A stretch of DNA of 20,418 nucleotides from a virus. The stretch covers positions 1 to 20,418 of IMG/VR virus record IMGVR_UViG_3300021376_000450. One strand, 5' to 3'. Shown here piece by piece: positions 731 through 19,426 of the stretch. The translations under genes and the position numbers were made by a program. The notes under the pieces are model-generated. The model did not search any database. It was not told where the DNA came from and saw nothing but the letters and a program-made list of their open reading frames with translations. Numbering within the stretch: the stretch's first letter is position 1; each line of letters opens with the position of its first letter.

Positions 731-1018
731 TTAGCCCGCGAATACGTCGTGACTGCCCACGGCTACTGCCGTGCAAGTTGCGATCTTGTCGCCGACCCGG
801 CCACCGCCCTTGCCGTTGACGAACACCGTGCGGCTGCCGATGGCGATGGGGGCCACGTGTGTGGGGCACGGGTTGCCAGGTAACAGGTGAGGAGTATTCA
901 CGTCGCCCTGGCGAGACCACGGCCGCCCGTTCACAAAAACGTCAAAGCTGCCTACGGCGCGGACCATCGGAGAGCAATGCGGAATATCTGGATCACCGAC
1001 ACGTGTTGCGGGTGGCAT
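731..1018 (-). CDS. PAAR-domain tail spike tip protein
   Basis: This 95-residue protein is made almost wholly of a PAAR fold. PAAR proteins cap the central spike of contractile tails, sharpening the tip that pierces the target envelope, and usually bind zinc through three His and one Cys. Visible features are the N-terminal RVGDP and HCSP, two copies of a GS-x(2)-VFVNG strand (about residues 23-31 and 61-69), the later RVGD and the terminal GSHDVF. H14, H44, H54 and C82 are candidate zinc ligands. A strong AGGAGG (1023-1028) lies four bases before the ATG. The start overlaps the upstream small gene by 26 bases. It is the last recognisable tail gene of the operon, far from gpJ/gpI. In many phages the spike genes are near the baseplate genes. 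Confidence 0.93.
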   Translation of the reverse strand: MPPATRVGDPDIPHCSPMVRAVGSFDVFVNGRPWSRQGDVNTPHLLPGNPCPTHVAPIAIGSRTVFVNGKGGGRVGDKIATCTAVAVGSHDVFAG

Positions 1019-1876: not shown

Positions 1877-2419
1877 TTAGATGTAGTGCAAGTAAGTGCC
1901 GAGAATGTATTTCGGCCCGGTGATTGGTTTGCGTCCCGCGTGCAGCCAGGGCCACAGCGGCGGGAACATGAGCAGCGAACCAGCGCACGGTTTGAACGAC
2001 TGGCCCCATGACGGAAACTCAGTGCAGCCGCCCTCCTCAACGTCGTTGAGGTAGAGGAACGCCACCAGGAACCGGCGTGCGCTTTCGTGGTCGTGCACGT
2101 CCACGTGATCCGGGAACTGGTCGGAGTCGTTGGGCAGGTATCGCTTGAGGCGCAGCTGCTCAAACGCCATGTTGTCCGGCCACTCGTTGCGCAGGCCGAT
2201 GTCGTTGGCGTAGCGACTGAAGTTGGGGAAGATCGCCTCGAACGTCAGCTTGTGGATCTCAGGCCACTCGGCGGATACGTTCACCTCGGCGAACCGGTAG
2301 TGATCGGTCTGGTAAATGACGTGGTCCTGGGAGTGGGCCTCAAAGTGATCGATCACCTGCTGGCAGGCATCACGATCGAGCACCTCCGGGTAGTACCGGA
2401 CAAAGTGGCTCAGCTGCAT
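1877..2419 (-). CDS. 2OG-Fe(II) oxygenase, prolyl 4-hydroxylase type
   Basis: These enzymes use 2-oxoglutarate, O2 and Fe(II) to hydroxylate a substrate, often prolines in proteins. In this 180-residue sequence the iron ligands are visible as the HxD motif H105-V-D107 (in FPDHVDVHD) and the distal H160 (in WPWLHAG). K170, ten residues after H160 in GPKYILGTYL, sits where prolyl-4-hydroxylases bind the 2-oxoglutarate carboxylate. The core FLVAFLYLNDVEEGGCTEFP is the classic strand set. No signal peptide is seen. The gene is in the same operon direction, 15 bases after the C39-like peptidase and 16 before the small hydrophobic protein. Related oxygenases are common in cyanophage genomes, with unknown substrates. 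A tail protein of this virion or a host protein are both possible targets. Confidence 0.9.
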   Translation of the reverse strand: MQLSHFVRYYPEVLDRDACQQVIDHFEAHSQDHVIYQTDHYRFAEVNVSAEWPEIHKLTFEAIFPNFSRYANDIGLRNEWPDNMAFEQLRLKRYLPNDSDQFPDHVDVHDHESARRFLVAFLYLNDVEEGGCTEFPSWGQSFKPCAGSLLMFPPLWPWLHAGRKPITGPKYILGTYLHYI

Positions 2420-2434: not shown

Positions 2435-3154
2435 TCAGGTCGTTGCCAGTATGGCCCAGCCAGAACCCGGCCCTTCAACCATCCAGCGTGGGCCGAAGTT
2501 CTTGTAGCTGTAACGCAGCTTCGCCCCCCAGTTGTTCACATAGGTGCCCGACACTAGATCGCAATCACCAAACGGGTCATGGACCACCAAACTCGTGTCG
2601 TCGTACCCAATGGCGCAGAGGTAGTGGCCTCCGCCTAGGGGCCTGCTGACCGGGCCTTTGTGGAGAAAGCCAAGCGGCACCGGGATTCCTTTGTCAATCT
2701 GCCTTTTCACCGTGTCGAAGTTGGCTTTCTGCGTGAACGCAGCCTGCACCCCATAGGTTGCCAGGGTCTTGATCTGTGCCCCGGCGTCCACCGTGTCTCC
2801 ATGACGCAGCACGCGGCCGAGGTAGGCGTCGTCGCCGTTGGGGCCGTTCAAGGTGCCCGGCTTTATAGTTTCCAGCAACATGGCGCAGCTGCTGGAGAAG
2901 CACATCCGTAAGGCGTGCTGAGTAGCTGAGTCCCGCTGTGAGTAGTACGGCACGCGGAGCGGGTTTGTCTTGGGCGCTGGCTCAGGTTGCTTCCCGGCTG
3001 CTCGATAAGTGTCCTTCCATTTAGCCGTTCGACTGTTCAGGCTTGCCGGCATCGCTTCATACAGTTCGCGGATGCCAGCGACCTGATGGGGCAAACCTTT
3101 GTAGTGCGTGAAGAACGGTAATAAATCTTCAATCTCGCTGCGTTTGTCAGTCAT
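2435..3154 (-). CDS. C39-like cysteine peptidase domain protein
   Basis: This 239-residue protein has an N-terminal helical region (about 1-65) and a C-terminal papain-like C39-type domain (about 66-239). Q73 in VPYYSQRDS would form the oxyanion hole and C85 in RMCFSSSCAM the nucleophile. H177 in GGGHYLCAIGYDD and D193 in VVHDPFGD complete a Cys-His-Asp triad. In C39_2-type proteins the domain can cut peptides, including peptidoglycan stem or leader peptides. In cyanophages such proteins sit where an endolysin would be expected. No signal peptide is seen. The ATG overlaps the upstream stop (ATGA, 3151-3154), coupling it to a membrane protein that could export or anchor it. A role in lysis is inferred from this position and from the GH24 lysozyme nearby. 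Confidence 0.8.
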   Translation of the reverse strand: MTDKRSEIEDLLPFFTHYKGLPHQVAGIRELYEAMPASLNSRTAKWKDTYRAAGKQPEPAPKTNPLRVPYYSQRDSATQHALRMCFSSSCAMLLETIKPGTLNGPNGDDAYLGRVLRHGDTVDAGAQIKTLATYGVQAAFTQKANFDTVKRQIDKGIPVPLGFLHKGPVSRPLGGGHYLCAIGYDDTSLVVHDPFGDCDLVSGTYVNNWGAKLRYSYKNFGPRWMVEGPGSGWAILATT

Positions 3155-4771: not shown

Positions 4772-5244
4772 GCGATCACCCCAAACAGGTCACCAAACCA
4801 GCCGCCCCAGCCGCCACCACCGGAGCCGTCAGAGCCGCCACCGCCGCTGAACTGATCTTCACCGTAGCGGGCCAGCTCCATCGAAAAGTCCATTCGCCGG
4901 GGGATGCCCGGGCCCACGTAGACGGTCTGGGTCTCCTGCACCTGGGTGATGCAGTATTGCCCCAGCACGTTGCCTAGGCCGTCGATCAGCTGCAGCGGCT
5001 CGCCGCCCTCGGCCATCGTCCGCATGGTGTTGAGCTGGCCCAGACCGCCTCTGAAGTGGGGGTAGATCACCCCGTTCAGGTTGATCTTCTCTTCGCCCTT
5101 GCCGATGAACTGCATCGCCGGCTCGCGCCCCAGGCGGTCCTGCTTCTCCCAGCGGTAGGCGCTCTGCCGTTGCAGCTGGTCGTGGGCTGCGGTGTTGATC
5201 TCGAATTGGAACCCGCCAAGGGTCATCAGGATCTGGGCTGCCAT
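4768..5244 (-). CDS. U: gpU-like tail completion protein
   Basis: This is a 158-residue protein of the P2 gpU family, which terminates or completes the tail and lies in the gene order between tape measure and gpX. It shows the N-terminal LMTLGGFQFEINTAAHDQLQ strand region, the conserved EEKINLNGVIYPHFRGG segment (about 51-67), the LIDGLGNVLGQYCITQVQE region and the RRMDFSMELARYG strand (116-128). The family core ends near residue 130; the final 28 residues are a Gly/Ser/Trp-rich tail (GGGGWGGWFGDLFG), a common variable end. The stop overlaps the gpX start, and it begins two bases after the tape measure stop. Confidence 0.93.
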   Translation of the reverse strand: MAAQILMTLGGFQFEINTAAHDQLQRQSAYRWEKQDRLGREPAMQFIGKGEEKINLNGVIYPHFRGGLGQLNTMRTMAEGGEPLQLIDGLGNVLGQYCITQVQETQTVYVGPGIPRRMDFSMELARYGEDQFSGGGGSDGSGGGGWGGWFGDLFGVIA

Positions 5245-5246
5245 GG

Positions 5247-8219
5247 TCAGTCGTTAAGGAAGGCGCGGACGCCCGACTCAGCATCAGACAGGAACCCGCT
5301 CAGGGCCATAGTGACCTGCTGGGCAATCTCGTCTGCGCTGGCGTTGGTGCCGGCCACGTTGATATTGACGGTGGGGTTCATGTTCATCCCCATGGTGCCG
5401 CCCCCGGCCATTGCCATCGCGGGCGCTGGCGTGGGCACCTGCGGGGGGTTGAGCTGCTGGAGCATCCCCATGGCCCCTGACAAAAGGCCGCTGTATTGAG
5501 GGGCAAACTTTTTGACCGCACCTTGCAACAGCTGGCCCAGACCGCCAAGCATCCCACCGCCCTGGGCAGCCGGTGCCGTGGGCCTGGCGGGGTACTGTGG
5601 GATGAATGGCTGGCTGAGCATCGGCACGCCAGCTGCGGTCAGCTGCGGCTGCGCCTGGGGCTGCTGGCCTTGCTGGCCCTGCTGCGGGTTGTAGTTCTTC
5701 TGGGCTTTGGCCACTCCGCGCATCCCATGTGCGGCGGAGGCGTGAATCGCATTATGCAGGACGGGTGATGCCTCGTTCACCCCGTCCGCCAGGGTGCCGA
5801 TGATCGACTTGCCGCTAGCAGTCAGGTACTTGAAGGGGCCCTCCTTGGCGTCGGAGAAGGGCATCATCTTGCGCACATTGGCGAATACGCCTTTCACAGC
5901 GGCGTAAAGCGCCTGGGCCCGGGACAACACGCCCTGAATGATCGTGTCGATGATTGCCTGGCCGACGCCGACCACCATGCCGGGCACCGATTTGATGAAC
6001 GCCACGATGCCCTGGAATGCCGTCACCGCCGCTGCCTTGACTGCAGCGAACGCGGCCCCCACCATGCTCGGGATTTGCATGAGCGCCCCCATGATCTGCT
6101 GGCCCAGCGAAATTGCGGCGCTGACGATCGCGTTAAAAGCCGTCTGCGCCAGGGTCCGCAGGCCGTTGAACGCCATCGCTGCGGCCGTGCCCATGTATTG
6201 GAACGCCCCGGAGAACATCGCCCCCAAGCCCCCCACGATGTTGCGCAGGCCGGCGAAGGCTTGGTTCACGCCAGCCACTGCTCGAGTGGCGTCACCAGTA
6301 AAGATGCCGACGATCGTGTTCCAGATGCCTTTGATCACGCCGACCACGCCGCCCAGGGCCTGGCCGATCCCGCTGAACATTTGACTGAGGCCGCCGCTCC
6401 ATAGCGCCTGGCCGATCGACATGAGTGCGCCTTTGATCCGCCCGATCGCACCGGTCACCACGGCAAGGCCCTGATCGAACGCGCCCCGCAGACCGCTGGG
6501 GATCATCGCCCGCACCCAGCCCAGCCATGCCGACACCATTGTGCGCACGCCGCCCAGCGCCTGATTAAACCCGGCGGCGATCAGCCCAGGGTTGAAGGTG
6601 AATGCCCCGGCGACCATTTTGCCCAGGCCCCCAAGGTAGTTCAGGAAGCCGCCAAGGGCTGTCTTGATCGCACCGAACGTGGCTTGGAACCTGGCGGCGA
6701 TGCCCTGGAAGGCGCTCGTCACCGCCTGTCGGAACGCCGGCACCTTGTCCCATAGAGCCTTGAACGCTAGGCCCAGGCCAACGATGGCCAGCACCGCAAT
6801 GCCTATGGGCCCGGTGATCGCCGCACCGATCGCAGCCATGGCCGGGCCGATCGCGCCAGCCCAGCCGGCGATGGTGGCCCCCAGGCTCATCGCCCCGATC
6901 GCAGCCCCCAGGGACGAGATCACGCTGATGAAACTGGCGATAAACGGTGCAACCGCCACCAGCCCGACGAACGCAGCGCCCACGCCCACGATGGTGTTCG
7001 TCAGCCAAGGTGCTTTCTCCGCCAGCGCAGCAAAGCCCTCCACCAGGGGGGTGATCGCCTTGGCGGCAACCGCCAGCGCCGGCAGCAGAGCATTGCCCAG
7101 GGCGATGCCCAACCGCTCGGTGGTGGCCTTAAAGGTGTTGAGGTTCCCGTTCAAGGTGTTGATCGACTTCAGGTAGTCCTGCTCGACCGTGCCAGCTGCG
7201 GCATCACCGCCCGCATCCGCCTTGAGCTTCTCGTACTCCTTGCGGTACTTCAGCAGCGACATGAGGCCGAGTTTGGCCTCCTTGTCCCCGAAGATCTGAG
7301 ACAGCTTGAAGACATCACCACCGGTGACACGCTGCAGCTCGTCGAGCGCAGCCTCCATCGGGTTGACGCCTTTCTTCTTGGCGTTGGCGAGCACCTGTTC
7401 GATGTTGACGCCGAACTTTTTGAACCGTTTGACCGCATCAGGCGCGGTCATTTTGAGCATGGCGTCCGTCATCCGGGTCGCCGCTTGCCCAGCATCCGGC
7501 GCGTCCTTGCGCACCATCTGCATCATCGCCGCCAGGCTGACCGCACCCTGCTTGCCTTGGATCCCCAGCGTGCCAGCTGCCGCCGCGATGGTCGGCATGA
7601 AGGTAGCCATGTCCTTCAGCTCAAACGCGCCGGCTTTACCTGCAAAGGCGAGCGCATCGAACGTGGACTTGAGCTCGGTTGGTTTGATCTTGAGGGCGTT
7701 CTGGAGCTGGAAGCCGGTCTTCGTAACGTCGGTCAGCTCCGAGCCGGTTGCGGTCGCAACCTTGCCCAGCGCCTCCATCGAGGCGACAGCATCCTTAAGG
7801 TCCAGGCCCTGGGCCACCAGGTCCTGGACGCCCTGCGCCAGCACCGTGGGTGCCAGGTTGGTCGCGTTGCGGGCTGACAGCGCAGACAGCTGTGCGCCCA
7901 GCGCCTTTAGCTCCGACTGGCTGGATCCGCTGATCTTGCCGATCTCGGTAAGCGAGGTCTCAAACTTCGCAGCGGTCCGCACCGACTGGCCCAGAGCCAA
8001 GCCGATTGACGCCGCGCCAGCTGCCGCCACTTGGAACGCATCGTTCCGCAGCATCCCCTTGAAGCCCTTAGCTCCAGCGGTTGCCGCGTCGTTGAACGTG
8101 CGGTTGACGTTGCGGGAGAAGCTGGAGACCTGGGCTTGTGCCGCCCGGAGGGAGGCCGCCAGCGACGCCGCCAGCTTGCCTCCGATCTCAACGGTGATCC
8201 TGCTGGTTGCCCCGGCCAT
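5247..8219 (-). CDS. T: tail tape measure protein
   Basis: The 990-residue protein sets tail length and fills the tube before ejection. Using the usual rule of about 1.5 angstrom per residue it predicts a tail near 150 nm. Order of parts: helical N-terminus, TP901/P2-type tape-measure domain at about 85-330 (FETSLTEIGKISGSS, then a VTGGDVFKLSQIFGD segment), and a hydrophobic region with several membrane-like spans at about 405-487. Long Ala/Gly/Phe-rich helices follow. Next comes the family C-terminal motif MPFSDAKEGPFKYLTASGKS, then a Gln/Pro-rich linker (NPQQGQQGQQPQAQ) and a final NMNPTVNINVAGTNA strand region. GGAGGT precedes the ATG. It starts three bases after the gpE' stop, as in P2. 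Confidence 0.96.
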   Translation of the reverse strand: MAGATSRITVEIGGKLAASLAASLRAAQAQVSSFSRNVNRTFNDAATAGAKGFKGMLRNDAFQVAAAGAASIGLALGQSVRTAAKFETSLTEIGKISGSSQSELKALGAQLSALSARNATNLAPTVLAQGVQDLVAQGLDLKDAVASMEALGKVATATGSELTDVTKTGFQLQNALKIKPTELKSTFDALAFAGKAGAFELKDMATFMPTIAAAAGTLGIQGKQGAVSLAAMMQMVRKDAPDAGQAATRMTDAMLKMTAPDAVKRFKKFGVNIEQVLANAKKKGVNPMEAALDELQRVTGGDVFKLSQIFGDKEAKLGLMSLLKYRKEYEKLKADAGGDAAAGTVEQDYLKSINTLNGNLNTFKATTERLGIALGNALLPALAVAAKAITPLVEGFAALAEKAPWLTNTIVGVGAAFVGLVAVAPFIASFISVISSLGAAIGAMSLGATIAGWAGAIGPAMAAIGAAITGPIGIAVLAIVGLGLAFKALWDKVPAFRQAVTSAFQGIAARFQATFGAIKTALGGFLNYLGGLGKMVAGAFTFNPGLIAAGFNQALGGVRTMVSAWLGWVRAMIPSGLRGAFDQGLAVVTGAIGRIKGALMSIGQALWSGGLSQMFSGIGQALGGVVGVIKGIWNTIVGIFTGDATRAVAGVNQAFAGLRNIVGGLGAMFSGAFQYMGTAAAMAFNGLRTLAQTAFNAIVSAAISLGQQIMGALMQIPSMVGAAFAAVKAAAVTAFQGIVAFIKSVPGMVVGVGQAIIDTIIQGVLSRAQALYAAVKGVFANVRKMMPFSDAKEGPFKYLTASGKSIIGTLADGVNEASPVLHNAIHASAAHGMRGVAKAQKNYNPQQGQQGQQPQAQPQLTAAGVPMLSQPFIPQYPARPTAPAAQGGGMLGGLGQLLQGAVKKFAPQYSGLLSGAMGMLQQLNPPQVPTPAPAMAMAGGGTMGMNMNPTVNINVAGTNASADEIAQQVTMALSGFLSDAESGVRAFLND

Positions 8220-8222
8220 TGC

Positions 8223-8635
8223 TTACCTCCGTTTGGTCTTGGCCGCGATCTCCTTCTCTACCTCCACGGCTGTCTTGTGCCATGCCAGCAGATCTTCCTG
8301 GGTCAGGTTGAGCAGATCTCCCAGGCCCCAGCCGGTGAGCTTGGCGACGATCACGCAGATGCGTCTTAGCTCTCGTCCTGGGGCCCAGTGAAACCCGCCA
8401 TCACGTTGGCGAGTTTCTGGAAGTCCACTATGTCCAGCTGCTGGATGGTGGCAGGGGGCACGTCGCACAAGGCGGCCATCATGTTGACGGTCTTCTTGGC
8501 CTCGGTGCCCTTGCCTTCTTCGAAGGCCAGCTGATCGGCCACGGTGGGCCGGCGCATGGCCAGAGTTGAAACCTGGACCCCATCGACTTCGACGGGGTAG
8601 TCCAGGTCAATCGGGGTAGTGGGTCGGGTTTTCAT
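8223..8635 (-). CDS. E+E': gpE-E' tail assembly chaperone, -1 frameshift fusion
   Basis: In P2-type phages a small share of ribosomes reading gpE slip back one base and make a longer gpE-E' protein; the two forms chaperone the tape measure during tail assembly. Here the second frame has no start of its own that would give the conserved part. It lies in the -1 frame relative to gpE and overlaps it. After slipping at GGGTTTC (8396-8390) translation continues as HWAPGRELRRICVIVAK, then LGDLLNLTQEDLLAWHKTA, and stops at 8223. That gives an 82 + 55 = 137 residue fusion. The LTxxDLLxW helix matches the GpE-type tail. Position directly before the tape measure is diagnostic. Recorded as one span; the join re-reads base 8390. 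Confidence 0.88.
8366..8635 (-). CDS. E: gpE-like tail assembly chaperone (unshifted form)
   Basis: This 89-residue protein has the usual gpE layout: an N-terminal strand pair (IDLDYPVEVDGVQVSTLAMR), then RRPTVADQLAFEEGKGTE and a helical end (VNMMAALCDVPPATIQQLDI, DFQKLANVMAGF). It belongs to the tail assembly chaperone E family (Mu gp41/P2 E type) and is needed to assemble the tape measure and tube. It starts five bases after the tube gene stop. The zero-frame product ends six codons past the slip site, with a TAA at 8366-8368. Confidence 0.92.
   Translation of the reverse strand: MKTRPTTPIDLDYPVEVDGVQVSTLAMRRPTVADQLAFEEGKGTEAKKTVNMMAALCDVPPATIQQLDIVDFQKLANVMAGFTGPQDES
8390..8396 (-). promoter_or_regulatory. 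-1 ribosomal frameshift site GGGTTTC
   Basis: In the gpE frame the minus strand reads GCG GGT TTC ACT, so the heptamer G GGT TTC has the exact X XXY YYZ form in the correct phase. Slippage re-pairs as GGG TTT and enters the gpE' frame in-register. The heptamer lies in the short overlap of the two frames, six codons before the gpE stop. The following CTGGGCCCCAG contains a short GC-rich inverted repeat (TGGGCCCCA, close to palindromic), which could add pausing. The alternative T GGG CCC C just downstream does not satisfy the pairing rule. Confidence 0.85.
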
Positions 8636-8640
8636 CTAGG

Positions 8641-9147
8641 TCAGATGCCGATTGCGGAGCGGATGCTTGCGAGCTGATCGGCGCCATTGATGATCCGGGT
8701 CATGTTCTCCACGTCGATCTCATGCACCACAGACCCACCGATGGTGAGCTTGTAGTACCGGAGACCCATGAGGAACGTGGCCTCGGTGATTTCACCGGCG
8801 ACCATTGAGCCGGGGTCGAACTCCTTGATGTGGCCCGTCACGTTGTAGACGATCGAGGTCGCATCCTCGCCGTTGGCCATCAGGGCACCACGGATGGTGG
8901 CCTGAACGGCTTTCTGATCGAGCAGGCCGAACAGATTGAGAACCTCGAGCTCGTACTCGGCCAGGACGAACTCCATTTCGAGTGCTTCCATGCCCATGTC
9001 GATCTGGGCTGGGAGGTCCATGCCGCCGCCGCGATACTCCTCAGCCATCACGGTGAGGCTCGGAGGGGACAGCTCGGTTACGCGACCGGCGTAGCCACGC
9101 CCGTCCACGTAGAGGCTGAAATTGCGAAGAGTCTTAGGAAGTGCCAT
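8641..9147 (-). CDS. FII: major tail tube protein (P2 FII family)
   Basis: The 168-residue protein matches the P2 FII length (about 170). It has the family start ALPKTLRNFSLYVDGRGYAG, the loop LTVMAEEYRGGGMDLPAQIDMGMEALEMEF (seen in pieces at about 32-60) and a C-terminal strand LRYYKLTIGGSVVHEIDVEN. Tube subunits stack into the inner tail channel inside the sheath. A GAGG-containing site lies six to seven bases before the ATG, overlapping the end of the sheath gene. Confidence 0.95.
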   Translation of the reverse strand: MALPKTLRNFSLYVDGRGYAGRVTELSPPSLTVMAEEYRGGGMDLPAQIDMGMEALEMEFVLAEYELEVLNLFGLLDQKAVQATIRGALMANGEDATSIVYNVTGHIKEFDPGSMVAGEITEATFLMGLRYYKLTIGGSVVHEIDVENMTRIINGADQLASIRSAIGI

Positions 9148-9155
9148 GGTCGACC

Positions 9156-10364
9156 TCAGTTAGTGGTGAGAAGCTCGGTCAGGTAGCCGTTTGTCAGCAC
9201 TGACCGGAATGTGACTCGTTCTGCCGGGTAGCAGGGGGTGAAATCAAAGTCGAACGTCACCTGGCCGTTGGCGATGTCGCCGGGGCCATTGGCCTCGGGA
9301 TCGATCCAACATTGGCCACCGAGGATGGCACCGCGAGCCTTGAGGCTGCGCAGGTACTCGTTCACGCTTTCCGCAACGTCTTGGAGATAGGTGCGGTTTA
9401 TGCAGCGATCCACCGCCCATAGGTGGCCGCGCAGGATTGACTCGTTCACCATGTCAGCGGTGCGGCGCACGGAAAGGTACTGCCACTTGCTGTCGCTTGC
9501 GGTGGTGCGATTGCCCCATAGGCGGAAGCCCTGCTCCCGAATGATGGTGGCCACCTTGTTCTCGTTGAGAATGTTGGCCGCCGAGTTGGCGTCGCCCAGG
9601 GCAAAGGGCACAGGACGGCTGACGCCGCTGATGCCTTGCATGAGCTTGTTAGAAGGTGACTCCCAAAAGCCAACCTCGGCATCGACGCGGGCGATCATGC
9701 CGGCCACGCGAGCGGAGGGGGGCTGATTAACAAAGTTGACGCCGCTGAGCACCCTGACCCAGGGATCCACCACGAACAGACGTTCGTCGCCGTGGTCGTC
9801 GGCATAGGCTTGCGCCGCTGCGTCGGTGGTGTTGGGGCCGTCAGCGATCACCACGGCGCGCAGACGTTCACCCAGGCCCACGGAGTCCTGTGCGATGCCA
9901 AGCATCTCAGCCACTACCGGGTTCACCAGGAAGGAGCCGGCGTTGTCGGGATCTGGAATGCGCTGATGAGTGAAGCCTGGTGCGATCAGGATCTTGGGCT
10001 GCACGCCCAGATCCACCTCTGCCCTCAGCAGGGCGTAGACGCCGGTATAGGCAGTTGAGTTGCCCACCACGTTGGACATGGTGGCCATCTCGTTGGCCCC
10101 TTCAGCAACCCGCACCACTACGACAGCAGCTCCGATCTGATCGAAGATGCCGTCCATGGCTGAGGGCAGGGTTCCAGTTGATCCCAGCTGGGAAGCCTTG
10201 GCTCGGCTGCCAGCGATCAACACCGGAGTGTTGAGCGGGAATGCGTCGTTGTCAGCGTTGGGTGCTGTGCCGACCAGGCCGATGACCGCCGACCGCACGG
10301 TGCGGATAGGACGGATGCCTGTATCGAGCTCCAGAACCTCGACACCGTGCAGAAAAGTGGTCAT
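9156..10364 (-). CDS. FI: contractile tail sheath protein (P2 FI family)
   Basis: The 402-residue sheath protein is close to P2 FI in length (about 396). It opens with TTFLHGVEVLELDTGIRPI followed by VRSAVIGLVGTAPNAD, the universal sheath N-terminal strand and domain. A ligase-like middle domain carries PKILIAPGFTHQR and RLRAVVIADGPN. The C-terminus has ADMVNESILRGHLWAVDR and RSLKARGAILGGQCWIDPE, the region that weaves neighbouring subunits together. The sheath contracts to drive the tube and spike into the target cell, proving a myovirus-type or tailocin-type tail. AAGGAGG (10376-10382) lies eleven bases before the ATG, as fits a highly expressed structural gene. Confidence 0.97.
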   Translation of the reverse strand: MTTFLHGVEVLELDTGIRPIRTVRSAVIGLVGTAPNADNDAFPLNTPVLIAGSRAKASQLGSTGTLPSAMDGIFDQIGAAVVVVRVAEGANEMATMSNVVGNSTAYTGVYALLRAEVDLGVQPKILIAPGFTHQRIPDPDNAGSFLVNPVVAEMLGIAQDSVGLGERLRAVVIADGPNTTDAAAQAYADDHGDERLFVVDPWVRVLSGVNFVNQPPSARVAGMIARVDAEVGFWESPSNKLMQGISGVSRPVPFALGDANSAANILNENKVATIIREQGFRLWGNRTTASDSKWQYLSVRRTADMVNESILRGHLWAVDRCINRTYLQDVAESVNEYLRSLKARGAILGGQCWIDPEANGPGDIANGQVTFDFDFTPCYPAERVTFRSVLTNGYLTELLTTN

Positions 10365-10375
10365 GGCGAAGGAGT

Positions 10376-10382
10376 CCTCCTT
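10376..10382 (-). promoter_or_regulatory. strong Shine-Dalgarno of the sheath gene
   Basis: AAGGAGG on the minus strand is a near-perfect anti-16S match, eleven bases ahead of the sheath ATG (slightly long spacing). It lies in the short space after the 43-residue basic ORF. Confidence 0.7.
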
Positions 10383-10401
10383 GGGGTGATTCTAGGGGTG
10401 C

Positions 10402-10533
10402 TCAACGGCCCTGACCCCGGAGCTTCTTGCGTCCGTGGCTGGGCTTTGAGTGAAGGCCCTGGCCTTGTCTTGTGCGCTTGGGTTTGCACTCAATTTTGTC
10501 GCCGGTTGGGCGTGTCTTGGTTTTAGCGGGCAT
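10402..10533 (-). CDS. 43-residue very basic protein ending in KKLRGQGR
   Basis: ATG at 10533-10531 to TGA at 10404-10402 gives 43 residues, with 14 Lys/Arg against 2 acidic residues. It contains the segments GDKIECKPKRT and SKPSHGRKKLRGQGR. Similar tiny basic proteins ending in a K/R-rich stretch plus RGQGR recur in cyanophage and other marine phage genomes as I recall, usually unannotated and of unknown role; nucleic-acid binding is a natural guess. The start overlaps the end of the preceding membrane protein gene by 11 bases, which supports translational coupling. No strong Shine-Dalgarno is seen. It fills what would otherwise be an unexplained 150-base gap before the sheath gene. Confidence 0.65.
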   Translation of the reverse strand: MPAKTKTRPTGDKIECKPKRTRQGQGLHSKPSHGRKKLRGQGR

Positions 10534-10762
10534 CGTTCAGCTGCTGCATGAGGTATTCCCGCAGCGCCTTGTCGGCTGCGGTTGGGTTGAGCTTTAGGTC
10601 AAGCTCGAAGATGCGATCACGCAGCTGCTGCTTGCGTGCAGCGGCGAACTGTTGCTGGACCTCCTGGCTCTTGGCATAGCGGTTGTCGATGGTGATGGTG
10701 GTGCCGACGATAGACGCCAGCACCGCTGCACCTGCTCCAAGTAGCGACCACCAGCGTGGCAT
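10523..10762 (-). CDS. small membrane-anchored coiled-coil protein (spanin/holin-like position)
   Basis: The 79-residue product has an N-terminal hydrophobic span (about 5-25, WSLLGAGAAVLASIVGTTIT). After it come DNRYAKSQEVQQQF and a charged helix (QQLRDRIFELDLKL, then TAADKALREYLMQQLNDA) typical of a coiled coil. The chosen ATG overlaps the upstream stop exactly as ATGA (10760-10764); the longer in-frame version reaching 10951 is Arg/Trp-rich shadow of the fibre gene and was rejected. This plan resembles small phage proteins with an N-terminal anchor and periplasmic coiled coil (i-spanin-like). Its place, between a fibre gene and the sheath gene, is not that of a classical lysis cassette, so the function stays open. 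Confidence 0.72.
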   Translation of the reverse strand: MPRWWSLLGAGAAVLASIVGTTITIDNRYAKSQEVQQQFAAARKQQLRDRIFELDLKLNPTAADKALREYLMQQLNDAR

Positions 10763-11715
10763 CACTGCACATAGACGCCGATAGCGCCGTTCATGCAATA
10801 ACCATTGCCGGAGTGTGCATGGCTTAAGTCGCCATGGCCCCACCAGTGACCGTGACAGCGCCAGCCACGATCTGAGACGTAACTGCCGCCAATACCGCCA
10901 CCGAAGTGACCATTTGTGGTGCCTTCTCCGCCAATGCCAATCTGTGCCCAATAGTGGCCTCCCCCCGACGGGAAGCCGCCCTGAACTGACGAGGCAGCAG
11001 TGTAAGGTTGCGAGTCTGATCTAACTTTGAAACCAAAACGCACAGTAGTCTGGCAAGGCTGAGTGTCTACACCGGCATGAACGCGTAGACGTCGCAAAAG
11101 ACTTTTATCGTTATCGTTAACATTAGGAAACAGCCAGCTTTTAGCATGGTTGTTACCGGTCTGTGTTTGCATAATCATGGCGCGCATCGAACTACAGACA
11201 GTGTCGTGATGCCATGCAAGCCGATAGCTTTGATCAGCAAGAGTCACGAGCATGACTCTTTGAAAGGGAGACTCTAAGTAGACGGGCGTCATTGAGTCTT
11301 CATCGTTAATTCGTGCCCAGGCGGACACCCCCCCTCCAACGCCACCGCACTGTGCGCGTGTCGAGAAAGCCCATCCTCCCCAGTTAATGCAAAAAGCGTC
11401 GTTGATACCTTGAACTGTAATGCCAGGAGATACTTTTAACGCCTGCATCCATCCGCCTGCCTCGGTAAAGATGCAGTGAACTTGAAATGGAACTGTTTGC
11501 CCAGGGGGGAGGATCCAGTAAGCGCCGTTAGTTGCGGAATTGTTTTCTCTATAAATTTGCCCGGCGCTGCTTGCAGGATTTTCGTATGTGCCCAGCGCAG
11601 AGCTCGTCACTTGACCATAGTTGTCATTCCATTTGTTTGCGGCCACTAATCTCGAGACACGAAAAGCATCCCAAACACCAGTTCGGCTTAAAGAGGTTGC
11701 TCCGATTGTTGCCAT
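10762..11715 (-). CDS. tail adhesin with fibrinogen/intelectin-like region and His-rich tip
   Basis: This 317-residue protein lies in the fibre cassette. Residues about 45-95 follow the fibrinogen-related pattern: NPASSAGQI, NGAYWILPPG, FQVHCIF, then EAGGWMQALKV, compared with NGVYWI..FQVYCDM..GGGW in fibrinogen/intelectin folds. The family binds sugars or acetyl groups in animals and occurs in some phage fibres. The central part has paired Cys (109, 123, 174, 221, 287, 307). The C-terminus is Gly-rich, then His-rich, with two HxH motifs (H288-G-H290, H299-A-H301) plus H294. HxH motifs in trimeric tail fibres such as T4 gp37 bind iron. Local base composition is less G+C-rich than the tail genes, suggesting exchange of this receptor-binding gene. 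The fold call is by pattern only. Confidence 0.7.
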   Translation of the reverse strand: MATIGATSLSRTGVWDAFRVSRLVAANKWNDNYGQVTSSALGTYENPASSAGQIYRENNSATNGAYWILPPGQTVPFQVHCIFTEAGGWMQALKVSPGITVQGINDAFCINWGGWAFSTRAQCGGVGGGVSAWARINDEDSMTPVYLESPFQRVMLVTLADQSYRLAWHHDTVCSSMRAMIMQTQTGNNHAKSWLFPNVNDNDKSLLRRLRVHAGVDTQPCQTTVRFGFKVRSDSQPYTAASSVQGGFPSGGGHYWAQIGIGGEGTTNGHFGGGIGGSYVSDRGWRCHGHWWGHGDLSHAHSGNGYCMNGAIGVYVQ

Positions 11716-11724
11716 GCTCGTTCC

Positions 11725-12594
11725 TCAGATCTTGTAACGGATAATTGCAATGCCGCTACCGCCGGCAGAACCATTGATGGCATAGCCGCCGCCGCCGCCG
11801 CCACCCTGATTTGCGCCTCCAGGAGATGTGCTTTGCTGCTGAACACGGCCGCCATTGCCGCCACCACCTATCCCCCCATGGCTCCAGCCGGACGCGCCAG
11901 CGCCGCCGCCGCCACCAGCGAACCATTCTGTGTTGCCACGCCAGTCAATGGGAATGCCGGGACCTCCAGTGCCGCCGATGTCTTGATTAGTGCTAGATCC
12001 GTTGCCGCCTGGGCCACCAGCTCCGCCGCCGCCCCCGCCGTTTGCGCCGGAGAGTTTGTTGCCACCTGTGTGCCCTTGCCCAGGTGTGTAGTTATAAGCG
12101 TTTGGAGACTCAGCATCAGATCCACCGCCGCTAGAAGCAACAGTACCAGAGGAAGGAACATTACCCCCTCGCCCCTTACCGCCTCCAAGTGCAATCTGAT
12201 TCAGGAAGGTCGTTTGCCCTCCGTTACCGGATTCTGCTGCGCCGCCGAGGCCAATAACAACAGAGTGAGTTCCACTTGGCAGGATAACTTTTTTCATAAT
12301 TACACCGCCGCCGCCGCCACCCGAAATGTTACCGGTGCCGCCGCCGCCGCCGCCAACTAGGAAGATTTCTGCTTCGCCTTGCTTTGTAACGGTGAGATTT
12401 CCGTTTGAAGTAAAACTGTGAACGCGATAGCCGTTCACGTCTTGCGTCACGTTGCCGCCAGTCGCAAGTGCTGCTCCGCCACCTAGCTGCAAAGAACTTG
12501 TGTTCTCTCCTAGCGCCCACACGCCTTTAACGGTGTTGTCGCTTAACGCATCCGCGCCAAGGTAGCCGCCGTTGAATTGGTGCAGGCGTGCCAT
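11725..12594 (-). CDS. glycine-rich tail fibre/adhesin protein
   Basis: The 289-residue protein has an N-terminal head (about 1-78, MARLHQFNGGYLGADALSDN then YRVHSFTSNGNLTVTKQGEA) that would attach it to the tail. About 200 residues of polyglycine-rich sequence follow, with clusters such as GGGGGG and GGPGGNG interrupted by short polar loops (STNQDIG, IDWRGNTEWFA, RVQQQSTSP). The end GGSGIAIIRYKI is typical of glycine-rich phage and bacterial adhesin domains. Comparable polyglycine-II adhesins (phage S16/T2 gp38 type) sit at fibre tips, where the loops between Gly blocks determine receptor specificity. The start shares one base with the upstream stop (TAATG). Confidence 0.82.
   Translation of the reverse strand: MARLHQFNGGYLGADALSDNTVKGVWALGENTSSLQLGGGAALATGGNVTQDVNGYRVHSFTSNGNLTVTKQGEAEIFLVGGGGGGTGNISGGGGGGVIMKKVILPSGTHSVVIGLGGAAESGNGGQTTFLNQIALGGGKGRGGNVPSSGTVASSGGGSDAESPNAYNYTPGQGHTGGNKLSGANGGGGGGAGGPGGNGSSTNQDIGGTGGPGIPIDWRGNTEWFAGGGGGAGASGWSHGGIGGGGNGGRVQQQSTSPGGANQGGGGGGGYAINGSAGGSGIAIIRYKI
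11752..12354 (-). repeat. polyglycine low-complexity region
   Basis: Codons for residues 81-281 of the glycine-rich adhesin, dominated by GGN triplets (seen on the plus strand as GCC/CCGCC runs, longest near 11780-11805 and 12302-12355). Such tracts recombine easily between related phages. Confidence 0.75.
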
Positions 12595-12932
12595 TAGGAG
12601 ATCTCCAAAGCGGAAACAGTTACTTCCAAACCGTTTGAGCCACTTGCTGTTGCCCGAAGCTTTTCACCGTTCTTAAGCACTAGCTTATTTGCAATTAGCT
12701 CAAGAGTTGCGTCAGCCGGGACGCTAATGGTGTAGGCAATCTTCGACAGTTCGGTGTTTGCCGAGTCGGTAACAGCGACAGTTACGTCAAAGGCGCTAGA
12801 GCCGTTCACGTTTGCCACCATGGCAGAAAGAACGACGGCGCGATTAGTAGCCGCACCGTTTGGTGCCTGGTAGATGTCAGTGGCGTTAGTGGTCGTGAGC
12901 TTGGTGCTCACACGGTTAAAAGTTTCAGCCAT
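12594..12932 (-). CDS. small beta-rich virion protein, unknown
   Basis: The 112-residue protein is rich in Val, Thr, Ala and Asn with alternating strand-like pattern (RAVVLSAMVANVNGSSAFDV, TVAVTDSANTELSKIAYTIS, LIANKLVLKNGEKLRATASG) and no Cys. It looks like a single Ig-like or jelly-roll beta domain. Small proteins of this kind occur next to fibre genes in cyanobacterial phages and are called hypothetical or structural. It lies between a fibre-repeat gene (21-base gap) and the glycine-rich adhesin (one-base overlap), so it may be a connector or decoration of the fibre. No enzyme motif is visible. Confidence 0.75.
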   Translation of the reverse strand: MAETFNRVSTKLTTTNATDIYQAPNGAATNRAVVLSAMVANVNGSSAFDVTVAVTDSANTELSKIAYTISVPADATLELIANKLVLKNGEKLRATASGSNGLEVTVSALEIS

Positions 12933-12953: not shown

Positions 12954-13379
12954 TTAGCCGAGGGCGATGGCCAGACCGATGCTGGCCTTGGTTGCTACCC
13001 GCGCGTCCACGTACTGCTTGGGCGCAGCGTGGAGCGCCTGGGTTGGATCACCCGACAGGGTGATGGCACCGGTCATTGTGCCACCAGCAAGCTGCAAGCG
13101 AGCTGCGAGGGCGTTGGTGACCGTGGTTGCGAAGTCCTGATCGTTGCCAAGGGCAGCGGCCAGCTCCTGCAGCGTGTTGAGCGCAGCAGGGCTGCCGTTC
13201 ACCAGGGCGGTGATGGCGTTGTCGATCAGGGTCTGGGTGGTTGTCGTGGTGGGGCGAGCAACCACGTCCGTGTCAATCGCCTGCAGCGCATCACGCAACC
13301 GCTGAACGTCATCCGCCAGGAGGTTTGACGGATAAGGGAGCGGGTAGGCCCGCCCTGTTGTCGTTTGGTTTGTAGGCAT
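12954..13379 (-). CDS. short tail fibre protein with phage-fibre repeats
   Basis: The 141-residue protein contains two fibre-type segments. Residues about 51-95 (LIDNAITALVNGSPAALNTL, QELAAALGNDQDFATTVTNA) form the repeat known from many tail fibres (phage fibre repeat type 2). Residues 98-126 (AGGTMTGAITLSGDP, then ALHAAPKQYVDA) form the 'tail fibre hinge/shaft' repeat usually preceding a collar or tip domain. Here the protein stops soon after it, without a collar domain. It would thus be a short shaft piece, with tip functions supplied by the separate downstream adhesins. It starts four bases after the DUF4815 gene. Confidence 0.85.
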   Translation of the reverse strand: MPTNQTTTGRAYPLPYPSNLLADDVQRLRDALQAIDTDVVARPTTTTTQTLIDNAITALVNGSPAALNTLQELAAALGNDQDFATTVTNALAARLQLAGGTMTGAITLSGDPTQALHAAPKQYVDARVATKASIGLAIALG

Positions 13380-17065: not shown

Positions 17066-19426
17066 CTACGAAGACGATTCATGTGCGGTCTCAATGGTTT
17101 GTGATGTTGGTTCCCAGGCAATGAGCGCCGTTGCCCACTTAGCTGTGGAGTTCCAGTCGCTGTTGCCAGCAGCCCACTGCACTTGCGCCCAGTCGCCTGT
17201 CGTCCAGTCGCTTGTGGCCCCCAGGTTCCAGATCTGACCAGCACCGTGCTCGAACCAGCTGCCTGCGTCATTCCAGGTGCTGTAACTGAAACGCTCCCAG
17301 CTGATGCCCTGGTAGGTGCGCTCGTGCTGGCGTTCGCTGATGGTCTCGCCCGCGTAGGCGTGCACCTCGGTTGTGACGTGCAGGCGATCGAGCCGCTCGT
17401 CTGCAAACCAGCCGAGCACGGCGTTGGTCTCGCCCAGCTCGTCTTGCCAGCTGTCCGACAGATAGATATGCGCCTTGACACCACCGCTGTGGAAGCCGCC
17501 GAGCAGCCCCTCCCAGGTGACGGCATCGTCCCAAGGGATGCCGGCCCAGCTGGTGGCGTGGACCCCGGCGCCGGTGTTTTCGAACTGGTGGACCCGGGTA
17601 AGGCACGCCTGATCCGCCAGGGTGGCGAACTCGGACAGCAGGTGCTGGTCCAGCAGGTACTGATCGTCCAGGCCGTCCAAAATCCGCTGGTGCTCGCGCT
17701 TGAGCGTGAGCTGGCTGGCAAGGTCTGCGGCCGCAACGCCAGCTGCCGGATGCGAGCGGTCGAACCGCTGATCGATCGACAGCCAGGCGGTGTCCACCAG
17801 GTGCTGCGACAGCCGATACAGTCCGCTGGCCTGGTACTCGCTGGCCGGCAGCACCAGTTGCGCTGCGCTGATGTGCTCGGAAAGGATGCCGGATCCTGTG
17901 ATCTGGCTGGCCTCGCTGAGCACCAGCACACCCTGCCCGGTCTCCTGCAGGTAGCCGTAGTCGGCCAGGGCGTCGTAGTCAGCAGCGGTGATGACCTCGC
18001 TGGGGTCTGCCTCGGAGAGCTGGAACGGCTCGTAGCCGATTTCAATCTCCAGGGAGACGTTGAACGTGGTGTTCGTGTCTCCCAGCAGCTGCCCCTCAGA
18101 CAGATAGAGGCCCGCGATGCTCGCGGTGTAGGTGTCGCCCTGCAGGACGTTCGAGCCTGACAGATAGTCGCTGGCACCGCTCCACTCAATCTGGTGCAGG
18201 CGGCTGAGCGCCAGCTGATCGAGCAGCGGCAGCCACTCGCTGAGCAGGTGCTGATTGAGCAGGAACTGATCGTCGAGCCCATCGATAACCCGTTGGTGTT
18301 CTCGCTTGAGCGACAGGCTGCTGGCCTGATCGGCAGCGGCCACGCCCGTGATTTCGTGATCGCGGTCGAACCGCTCGTTCCACTCCTCGTAAGTGGGGCG
18401 GATGATCTGCTCGCTGAGCACACCCTCCCCGGTTGCAAAGTCTGGATCCGACAGCAGGAACGGATCGTCGCCCTCAATCGCGTCGAACCGTGAGCCAAAG
18501 GTGGTGTTTGTCTCCCCGAAAATGCACTGATCGCTGAGGTAGACACCAGCCTTGGCAAACTTGAGCGCCGGCTGAATGCGGTTGACCAGGCCGGCCCAGT
18601 CGAGGCCCTGGTCCCAAGTGTGATCCGCCCAGTTCGTAGACGGCTGCCACCAGGGGCCTACAGCGGTGAGGTGGCCACGACTGACCACCACACCCAAGTC
18701 GGTCATGTGGAACTCGCGCCAGACCAGCTCGCTGAGCTGGTTGACATCGAGGATCATCTTGTCCTCGTACCAGCCTTGATCGGTGTGAATCCGCTCGACC
18801 GCGCTGGTGATGGCGTTGCCATCGGTGAAGCTGACGGTCTCTTCGAACTCACGCCCGAACGACAGCTGCGGCCACGGCAGCTCCTGGTCTTGGTAGAGAT
18901 AGACCCCGGTGTGGTCGCAAAGCCACGACCCTTCGCTTAGCTGGTGGTCGTCGAGCTTGAACCGCCGGTAGTCGTAGCCGCCGTAAATCCTGAACAGGCG
19001 ACTGCGGATTGGTGCCGACAGGCGCGACACCTGGATCACGTTGTTCGTGAACTCCAGGTTTTGCGGGGCCTGATCCAGGCCCATCTGAAAATCAGCCCAG
19101 CGCAGTGTGCCGGCTTCGGACTCCTCGATGCTGGCGTTGAAGCCGATCCAATCGAGGGCTATTTGGACGGCGCTGCGAGTGCCCCGCACTCGCTGCCATT
19201 GGATTCCCTGCGCCAGCGCCTGCCGTAGATCAGGCACATAAGGGAGGATTTCACCGAGGCCGTATTCATAGATGAGCCACGGCACCACATCGTCGGGAAT
19301 GTTTTCGCGCTTGGCGCGGCGAACACGTGCGACGGCTGAGCTGAGTGTCGGCAGCACATCGCTGGTGCGCGATAGATCGCGCTCCAGCTGTGTGGCGTTA
19401 CTCGGTAGGAGATCGGTGGCCGTCAT
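17066..19426 (-). CDS. I: gpI-like baseplate protein with long repeat-containing extension
   Basis: The 786-residue protein begins with a tail-protein-I domain (about 1-160). LLPSNATQLERDLSRT, DVVPWLIYEYGLGEILPYVP and GTRSAVQIALDWIG are the family segments; P2 gpI ends near 176 residues. The other 600 residues are an extension made of repeats. A 67-residue unit recurs at 352-418 and 554-620 (45 of 67 identical by hand alignment). A YLSD/YLSE...G(E/D)TN unit recurs at 293, 438 and 653. A short LS(E/D) motif occurs about a dozen times (for example 163, 230, 297, 337, 395, 442, 470, 503, 515, 598). The last 80 residues are Trp-rich (WNDAGSWFEHGAG, GDWAQVQWAAG). The start overlaps gpJ as ATGA. 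gpI probably forms the baseplate wedge, the extension projecting outward. I know no function for the extension. Confidence 0.88.
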   Translation of the reverse strand: MTATDLLPSNATQLERDLSRTSDVLPTLSSAVARVRRAKRENIPDDVVPWLIYEYGLGEILPYVPDLRQALAQGIQWQRVRGTRSAVQIALDWIGFNASIEESEAGTLRWADFQMGLDQAPQNLEFTNNVIQVSRLSAPIRSRLFRIYGGYDYRRFKLDDHQLSEGSWLCDHTGVYLYQDQELPWPQLSFGREFEETVSFTDGNAITSAVERIHTDQGWYEDKMILDVNQLSELVWREFHMTDLGVVVSRGHLTAVGPWWQPSTNWADHTWDQGLDWAGLVNRIQPALKFAKAGVYLSDQCIFGETNTTFGSRFDAIEGDDPFLLSDPDFATGEGVLSEQIIRPTYEEWNERFDRDHEITGVAAADQASSLSLKREHQRVIDGLDDQFLLNQHLLSEWLPLLDQLALSRLHQIEWSGASDYLSGSNVLQGDTYTASIAGLYLSEGQLLGDTNTTFNVSLEIEIGYEPFQLSEADPSEVITAADYDALADYGYLQETGQGVLVLSEASQITGSGILSEHISAAQLVLPASEYQASGLYRLSQHLVDTAWLSIDQRFDRSHPAAGVAAADLASQLTLKREHQRILDGLDDQYLLDQHLLSEFATLADQACLTRVHQFENTGAGVHATSWAGIPWDDAVTWEGLLGGFHSGGVKAHIYLSDSWQDELGETNAVLGWFADERLDRLHVTTEVHAYAGETISERQHERTYQGISWERFSYSTWNDAGSWFEHGAGQIWNLGATSDWTTGDWAQVQWAAGNSDWNSTAKWATALIAWEPTSQTIETAHESSS
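17567..17767 (-). repeat. second copy of the 67-residue repeat in the gpI-like gene
   Basis: Residues 554-620, starting RFDRSHPAAGVAAADLA and including LKREHQRILDGLDDQYLLDQ. It matches the copy at 18173-18373 at 45 of 67 residues and lies 606 bases from it in the same frame. Confidence 0.85.
18173..18373 (-). repeat. first copy of the 67-residue repeat in the gpI-like gene
   Basis: Residues 352-418, starting RFDRDHEITGVAAADQA and including LKREHQRVIDGLDDQFLLNQ. Its similarity to the copy at 17567-17767 is clear at both protein and DNA level (for example the shared GGTCGAACCGCT at the unit start, plus strand), yet diverged enough to be old. Confidence 0.85.

Follow-up and report, generated by a model that had tools for sequence, protein, structure and literature searches.

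A 317-residue protein encoded among the tail genes of an uncultivated virus is best read, with a probability of roughly 0.6, as an exchangeable adhesin on the contractile tail of a P2-like phage, with an intelectin-like fibrinogen-related domain. Its gene lies in a window of 20,418 bases, the whole stretch of DNA analyzed here, which is a complete IMG/VR virus record. In the preferred reading, residues from about 45 to 317 would form the fibrinogen-related domain, most like those of intelectins, and the unmatched N-terminal segment (about 1–42) would attach the protein to the baseplate and fibre network or to its glycine-rich neighbour. The C-terminal subdomain, which is rich in glycine, aromatic residues and histidine, would bind a glycan of the host surface and thereby settle the host range. 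A His/Trp loop at residues 285–301 may line the glycan pocket instead of forming a metal clamp on a trimer axis, and the adhesin would be replaced whole on encounter with new host surfaces.

Open Reading Frame and Tail-Gene Neighbourhood

The open reading frame (ORF) runs on the minus strand from an ATG start to a TGA stop, while the plus strand over the same interval contains many stop codons. A ribosome-binding-like GAGGAA sequence is located 5 nt 5′ of the ATG, the stop codon overlaps the ATG of the next small ORF (TGATG), and the region of the gene yielded no promoter-like site. The genes around it are listed below.

9156–10364, minus strand: tail sheath protein, the next gene after the cassette
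10523–10762, minus strand: small ORF of about 79 residues, including a hydrophobic segment; its ATG and the stop of the 317-residue ORF overlap
10762–11715, minus strand: 317-residue ORF, fibrinogen-related/intelectin-like protein and putative tail adhesin (coding 10765–11715, stop 10762–10764)
11721–11726, minus strand: GAGGAA, ribosome-binding-like as read from the sequence; it shares bases with the stop codon of the glycine-rich gene upstream
11725–12594, minus strand: glycine-rich tail protein of 289 residues (Pfam Gly_rich_2, E = 1.2e-16)
12594–12932, minus strand: 112-residue protein (phrog_1276)
12954–13379, minus strand: tail-fibre-like protein of 141 residues
13384–16530, minus strand: DUF4815 protein of 1048 residues (E = 7.8e-184)

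The complete order is Baseplate_J, Tail_P2_I, BW3TFN, DUF4815, the 141-residue tail-fibre-like protein, the 112-residue protein, the glycine-rich protein, the 317-residue ORF, the small ORF, sheath, tube, tape measure, GpU and hub. The neighbours encode a contractile tail of the P2-like type. Enterobacter phage Arya and vB_EcoM-ep3 have sheaths about 60% identical to the one encoded here, and a megablast search of the whole window against phages gave no match.

Several other features were observed in the window. A PAAR-motif protein (PF05488, E = 5.2e-8; 731–1018, minus strand), a possible spike tip, is encoded near the lysis genes. A 2OG-Fe(II) oxygenase (PF13640, E = 1.3e-8; 1877–2419, minus strand) lies in the tail/lysis region; this enzyme class has also been found among the genes of metaviromic islands (PMC3909814). 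A Peptidase_C39-like protein (PF13529, E = 6.1e-11; 2435–3154, minus strand) is encoded between the oxygenase gene and a small ORF of membrane type, close to the lysozyme gene. The Tail_P2_I gene contains internal repeats of ~140 bases that are ~72% alike (17629–17769 and 18235–18375), and the DNA match between the window and another sequence, L032, is interrupted at 18135–18233.

Fibrinogen-Like Signature and Phage Relatives

An earlier sequence-only reading had noticed a fibrinogen-type pattern together with a C-terminal histidine cluster in this ORF, and had combined them into a lectin-type fold with a metal-stapled tip. Both motifs are indeed in the protein: NGAYWI at residues 63–68, FQVHC at 77–81 and GGW at 87–89, followed near the C-terminus by HGH at 288–290, HAH at 299–301 and an extra histidine at 294. 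The parts of the protein that are discussed below are located as follows.

11446–11568, minus strand: fibrinogen-like signature NGAYWI...FQVHC...GGW, residues 50–90
11170–11568, minus strand: intelectin-aligned stretch, residues 50–182 (hhalign probability 90.8)
11296–11298, minus strand: Asp140, invariant in 17/17 members and placed by hhalign on Asp133 of intelectin-1
10813–10863, minus strand: residues 285–301, WRCHGHWWGHGDLSHAH, a variable His/aromatic loop preceding the last strand

The signature stretch was matched by the NCBIfam model NF040941 (fibrinogen-like YCDxxxxGGGW domain) with an E-value of 7.1e-7 and 29.2 bits, so that the protein alone narrowly misses the model's curated threshold of 30 bits. 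It contains the N-terminal signature of the FReD superfamily (YWI...YC...GGGW), and two phrogs without an assigned function also hit these residues. Pfam Fibrinogen_C (PF00147) gave no match to the 317-residue protein up to E = 1. As judged from these profile scores and those of the relatives described next, the fibrinogen signature is above chance.

Relatives that align over the full length were found in other phages. A tblastn search of phage genomes detected Actinomycetia phage DSL-LC01 (E = 9e-24), in which the C-terminal domain of an 824-residue protein aligns end to end with the 317-residue protein; cyanophage matches in this search were weak and limited to the signature stretch. Scans of IMG/VR with growing profiles added more relatives of the same 825-residue type. 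The final alignment (A6) comprises 17 members including the 317-residue protein, to which the other 16 are 33–37% identical. NF040941 matched all 17 (best E = 9.2e-17), Fibrinogen_C matched 9 of them (best E = 4.5e-6), and five matched phrog_15727, which is annotated as a virion structural protein. Outside this set, no close homologue was found in an IMG/VR pattern scan with the 317-residue protein alone as the query, two scans of 84,980 bacterial and archaeal genomes with the family profiles gave no confirmed relative, and the plasmids searched gave no match. A more distant fibrinogen-like phage protein (L015), tried as an extension of the family, led to no deeper family. The first 47 residues had no match in phages and are presumed to be an attachment segment without a found relative.

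In phage DSL-LC01 (L001), collagen-like genes flank the homologous adhesin gene. Intelectin-1 binds galactofuranose. DSL-LC01 encodes a UDP-galactose mutase (PMC10611076), and a link between the two is speculation. The 317-residue protein has seven cysteines, six of which (positions 109, 123, 174, 221, 287 and 307) are cysteine in none of the relatives; these six are possible extra disulfides or metal ligands.

Relation to Intelectins and Predicted Fold

When the A6 profile of 17 phage sequences was searched against the PDB, human intelectin-1 ranked first (E = 2.7e-6), followed by fibrinogen beta, XEEL, MFAP4 and others, and earlier family profiles agreed with this ranking. For a direct comparison, three solved intelectins were aligned (A9), of which the human sequence is identical letter for letter to 6USC/4WMQ. 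Hhalign between A6 and A9 aligned residues 50–182 with the probability given above, and the N-terminal half can thus be securely assigned, on its sequence, as fibrinogen/intelectin-like. The C-terminal half gave 0.1 in hhalign, i.e., no sequence match to the intelectins, and a profile of this half produced just a chance match against the PDB.

An AlphaFold2 monomer model was obtained from 16 sequences with a mean pLDDT of 47.1 and a pTM of 0.54. Confidence was good only around residues 44–95 and 150–180, and residues 211–310 were below a pLDDT of 50 except residue 259; prediction from the single sequence without an alignment was useless (pLDDT 29.5). In a structural comparison of this low-confidence model (mean pLDDT 47), five intelectin-type lectins came out on top (Z 10.3–11.3) and the next family, ordinary fibrinogen domains, reached at most 7.7; the fold matches listed, at Z 6.8–11.3, are FReD and intelectin structures. 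The intelectin matches cover about 210 residues at an rmsd of about 4 Å within the model range 31–317, the best of them having a Z of 11.3 over 212 residues at 3.8 Å. Foldseek of the model gave weak E-values against the PDB (best 6.6e-3), and against BFVD it listed cyanophage and uncultured phage proteins first, with two named fibrinogen C-terminal domain proteins. That the domain as a whole has an intelectin-like topology is likely rather than firm, with moderate support from the model. The lectin part of the earlier proposal hence stood, through the NF040941, PDB-profile, hhalign and fold matches, the C-terminal half of the protein being matched in the low-confidence model and not in sequence.

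Calcium-Ligand Positions

The intelectin match raises the reading of a calcium-dependent X-type lectin that works exactly as intelectins do, with a C-terminal calcium chelating a vicinal diol. The top fold match is consistent with it, as is the invariant Asp140, since Asp133 of intelectin-1 appears to correspond to a residue of lamprey LSSL that binds structural calcium (PMC9682848; the numbering equivalence is read from alignments). The structural calcium motif of intelectins, HENxxxGxCTxGD (PMC9682848), is nevertheless absent from the 317-residue protein and its relatives. Moreover, lamprey LSSL uses Glu/Asp residues in its C-terminal ligand calcium region (PMC9682848), whereas no column after residue 234 has Asp or Glu in at least 6 of the 17 members. 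This makes an intelectin-type ligand calcium unlikely, and we regard a strictly X-type mechanism as very improbable.

Histidine Cluster

The second half of the earlier proposal was that H288, H290, H299 and H301 of the lectin-type domain would come together at the axis of a trimer to bind iron or some other metal, as in T4 gp37. Binding of seven irons through repeated HxH motifs in a trimeric fibre is established for T4 gp37, and HxH iron binding has been proposed for other fibres (PMC11705849), giving this idea a precedent. The cluster is also uncommon by composition: when the 317 residues were shuffled 100,000 times, 1.6% of the shuffles had two HxH within a span of 14 residues and 0.5% had five histidines in such a span. 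As the cluster was picked after reading the sequence, it is unusual, not extreme.

Conservation does not follow such a role. Of the 12 histidines, H170 alone is invariant among the 17 members. Position 288 is His in 10/17 and otherwise Gly, and position 290 is His in 13/17 and otherwise Asn or Val, so that an intact first HxH occurs in 6 members; the second (299–301) is found in 1/17, the window protein only. Elsewhere in the family these positions drift to GGH, GAH, GSH, HGN and HGV, a pattern unlike that of a structural metal clamp. In addition, T4-type sites repeat along a trimeric fibre, whereas the present loop is embedded in a globular domain, close to its last strand. The metal staple was discarded on these conservation counts; we give it almost no credence, and the idea should be dropped unless metal turns up in the 317-residue protein.

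The same loop may have a different role in the adhesin reading. In a weak, non-significant HMM alignment, W291 falls near W288 of intelectin-1, a residue of the aromatic box in the sugar pocket (PMC12800186). From this alignment, a His/Trp loop lining the glycan pocket is a lead.

Cassette between the DUF4815 and Sheath Genes

The gene belongs to a segment that closely related phages, retrieved using the DUF4815 protein, either do not have or have replaced by other genes.

10420–12590, minus strand: exchangeable cassette of the glycine-rich gene, the 317-residue gene and the small ORF (the L030 match ends at 12591; the L033/L031 match begins at or before 10419)

The DNA identity of close relatives is 96–99% on one side of the cassette and 89% on the other. 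L030 is 96% identical to the window up to its breakpoint, beyond which its glycine-rich gene is a different one. In L033, identity is 89% over 4782–10419, there is no DNA match from 10420 to about 13140, and the match then resumes at 67–72%. In L031/L033, L035 and L036, the slot between the DUF4815 and sheath genes is occupied by other glycine-rich or adhesin-like genes. In L036, an unrelated 421-residue adhesin-like protein (7219–8484, plus strand) occupies the slot preceding the sheath gene. The 317-residue gene has a GC content of 52% against 62% for the window. The DNA breakpoints, replaced genes and GC difference fit an exchangeable adhesin cassette, and within the tail operon the 317-residue gene is a variable occupant of the slot for tail fibres and adhesins. 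Fibrinogen-like proteins have been listed among the host-recognition genes of variable metaviromic islands (PMC3909814) and, in roseophages, as subgroup-specific genes of the tail module (PMC12629253).

The same arrangement could be explained if the 317-residue protein served the fibre cassette in an accessory or structural capacity, such as a cap, an assembly helper or an attachment piece, with the 289-residue glycine-rich protein as the receptor binder. Its gene adjoins, and is probably translationally coupled with, the glycine-rich tail gene, and in L031/L033 and L035/L036 glycine-rich proteins fill the slot with no fibrinogen-like gene present, both of which speak for an accessory role. 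We nonetheless consider such a role unlikely: most members of the fold family bind ligands, in DSL-LC01 the domain forms the C-terminal end of a long protein, and the glycine-rich tips could stand in for the 317-residue protein instead of working with it. Returning to the adhesin reading, lectin-like relatedness together with an exchangeable adhesin cassette suggests that the 317-residue protein probably grips sugars on the host surface.

Significance

Phage fibrinogen-like proteins are already annotated, for example in P-SSM4, and what is new here is a divergent stand-alone member. Among the papers available for searching, none dealt with phage fibrinogen-like adhesins as such, and there were only mentions (PMC3909814, PMC12629253, PMC9682848). 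The present case adds a divergent, stand-alone fibrinogen-related adhesin to phage tails, and its synteny is evidence that phages which are otherwise nearly identical exchange fibrinogen-like genes in cassettes. A phage or bacterial ancestor has been proposed for animal intelectins (PMC9682848). With a full-length set of 17 phage members whose closest solved fold is that of intelectin, a phage origin of intelectins becomes testable by structure. A far-reaching version, in which phages carry full-length intelectin-like lectins as living relatives of that proposed ancestor and the 317-residue protein represents them in divergent, stand-alone form, its glycan pocket made up of His and aromatic residues and free of calcium, seems to us quite unlikely.

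Comparison with Known Systems

With the HxH iron-binding fibre tip of T4 gp37, the 317-residue protein has in common the presence of HxH; in its family the motif is unconserved and unrepeated along a fibre, and the fold is different. The cyanophage fibrinogen-like proteins (P-SSM4 Q58LR8, P-HM2 E3SSV2, S-RIM14 and S-CAM4; phrog_1325 and phrog_10681) have the same N-terminal signature, but the sequence match is confined to the N-terminal 50–60 residues and the C-terminal halves differ. Intelectins and X-type lectins (human ITLN1 4WMQ/6USC, Xenopus XEEL and lamprey serum lectin 7E1E) are the best solved relatives by profile, by profile–profile alignment (50–182) and by fold, from which the 317-residue protein differs in the C-terminal sequence, in the structural calcium motif and in the conserved carboxylates of the ligand site. 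The likeness extends furthest to the C-terminal domain of DSL-LC01 WJZ48559.1 and its IMG/VR relatives (L006–L010, L019–L025, L029 and L064–L073), with 35% identity over ~290 residues that include the C-terminal half. In that type, the domain ends a protein of ~825 residues encoded near collagen-like genes, whereas in the window it is a stand-alone protein of a P2-like phage with extra histidines and cysteines.
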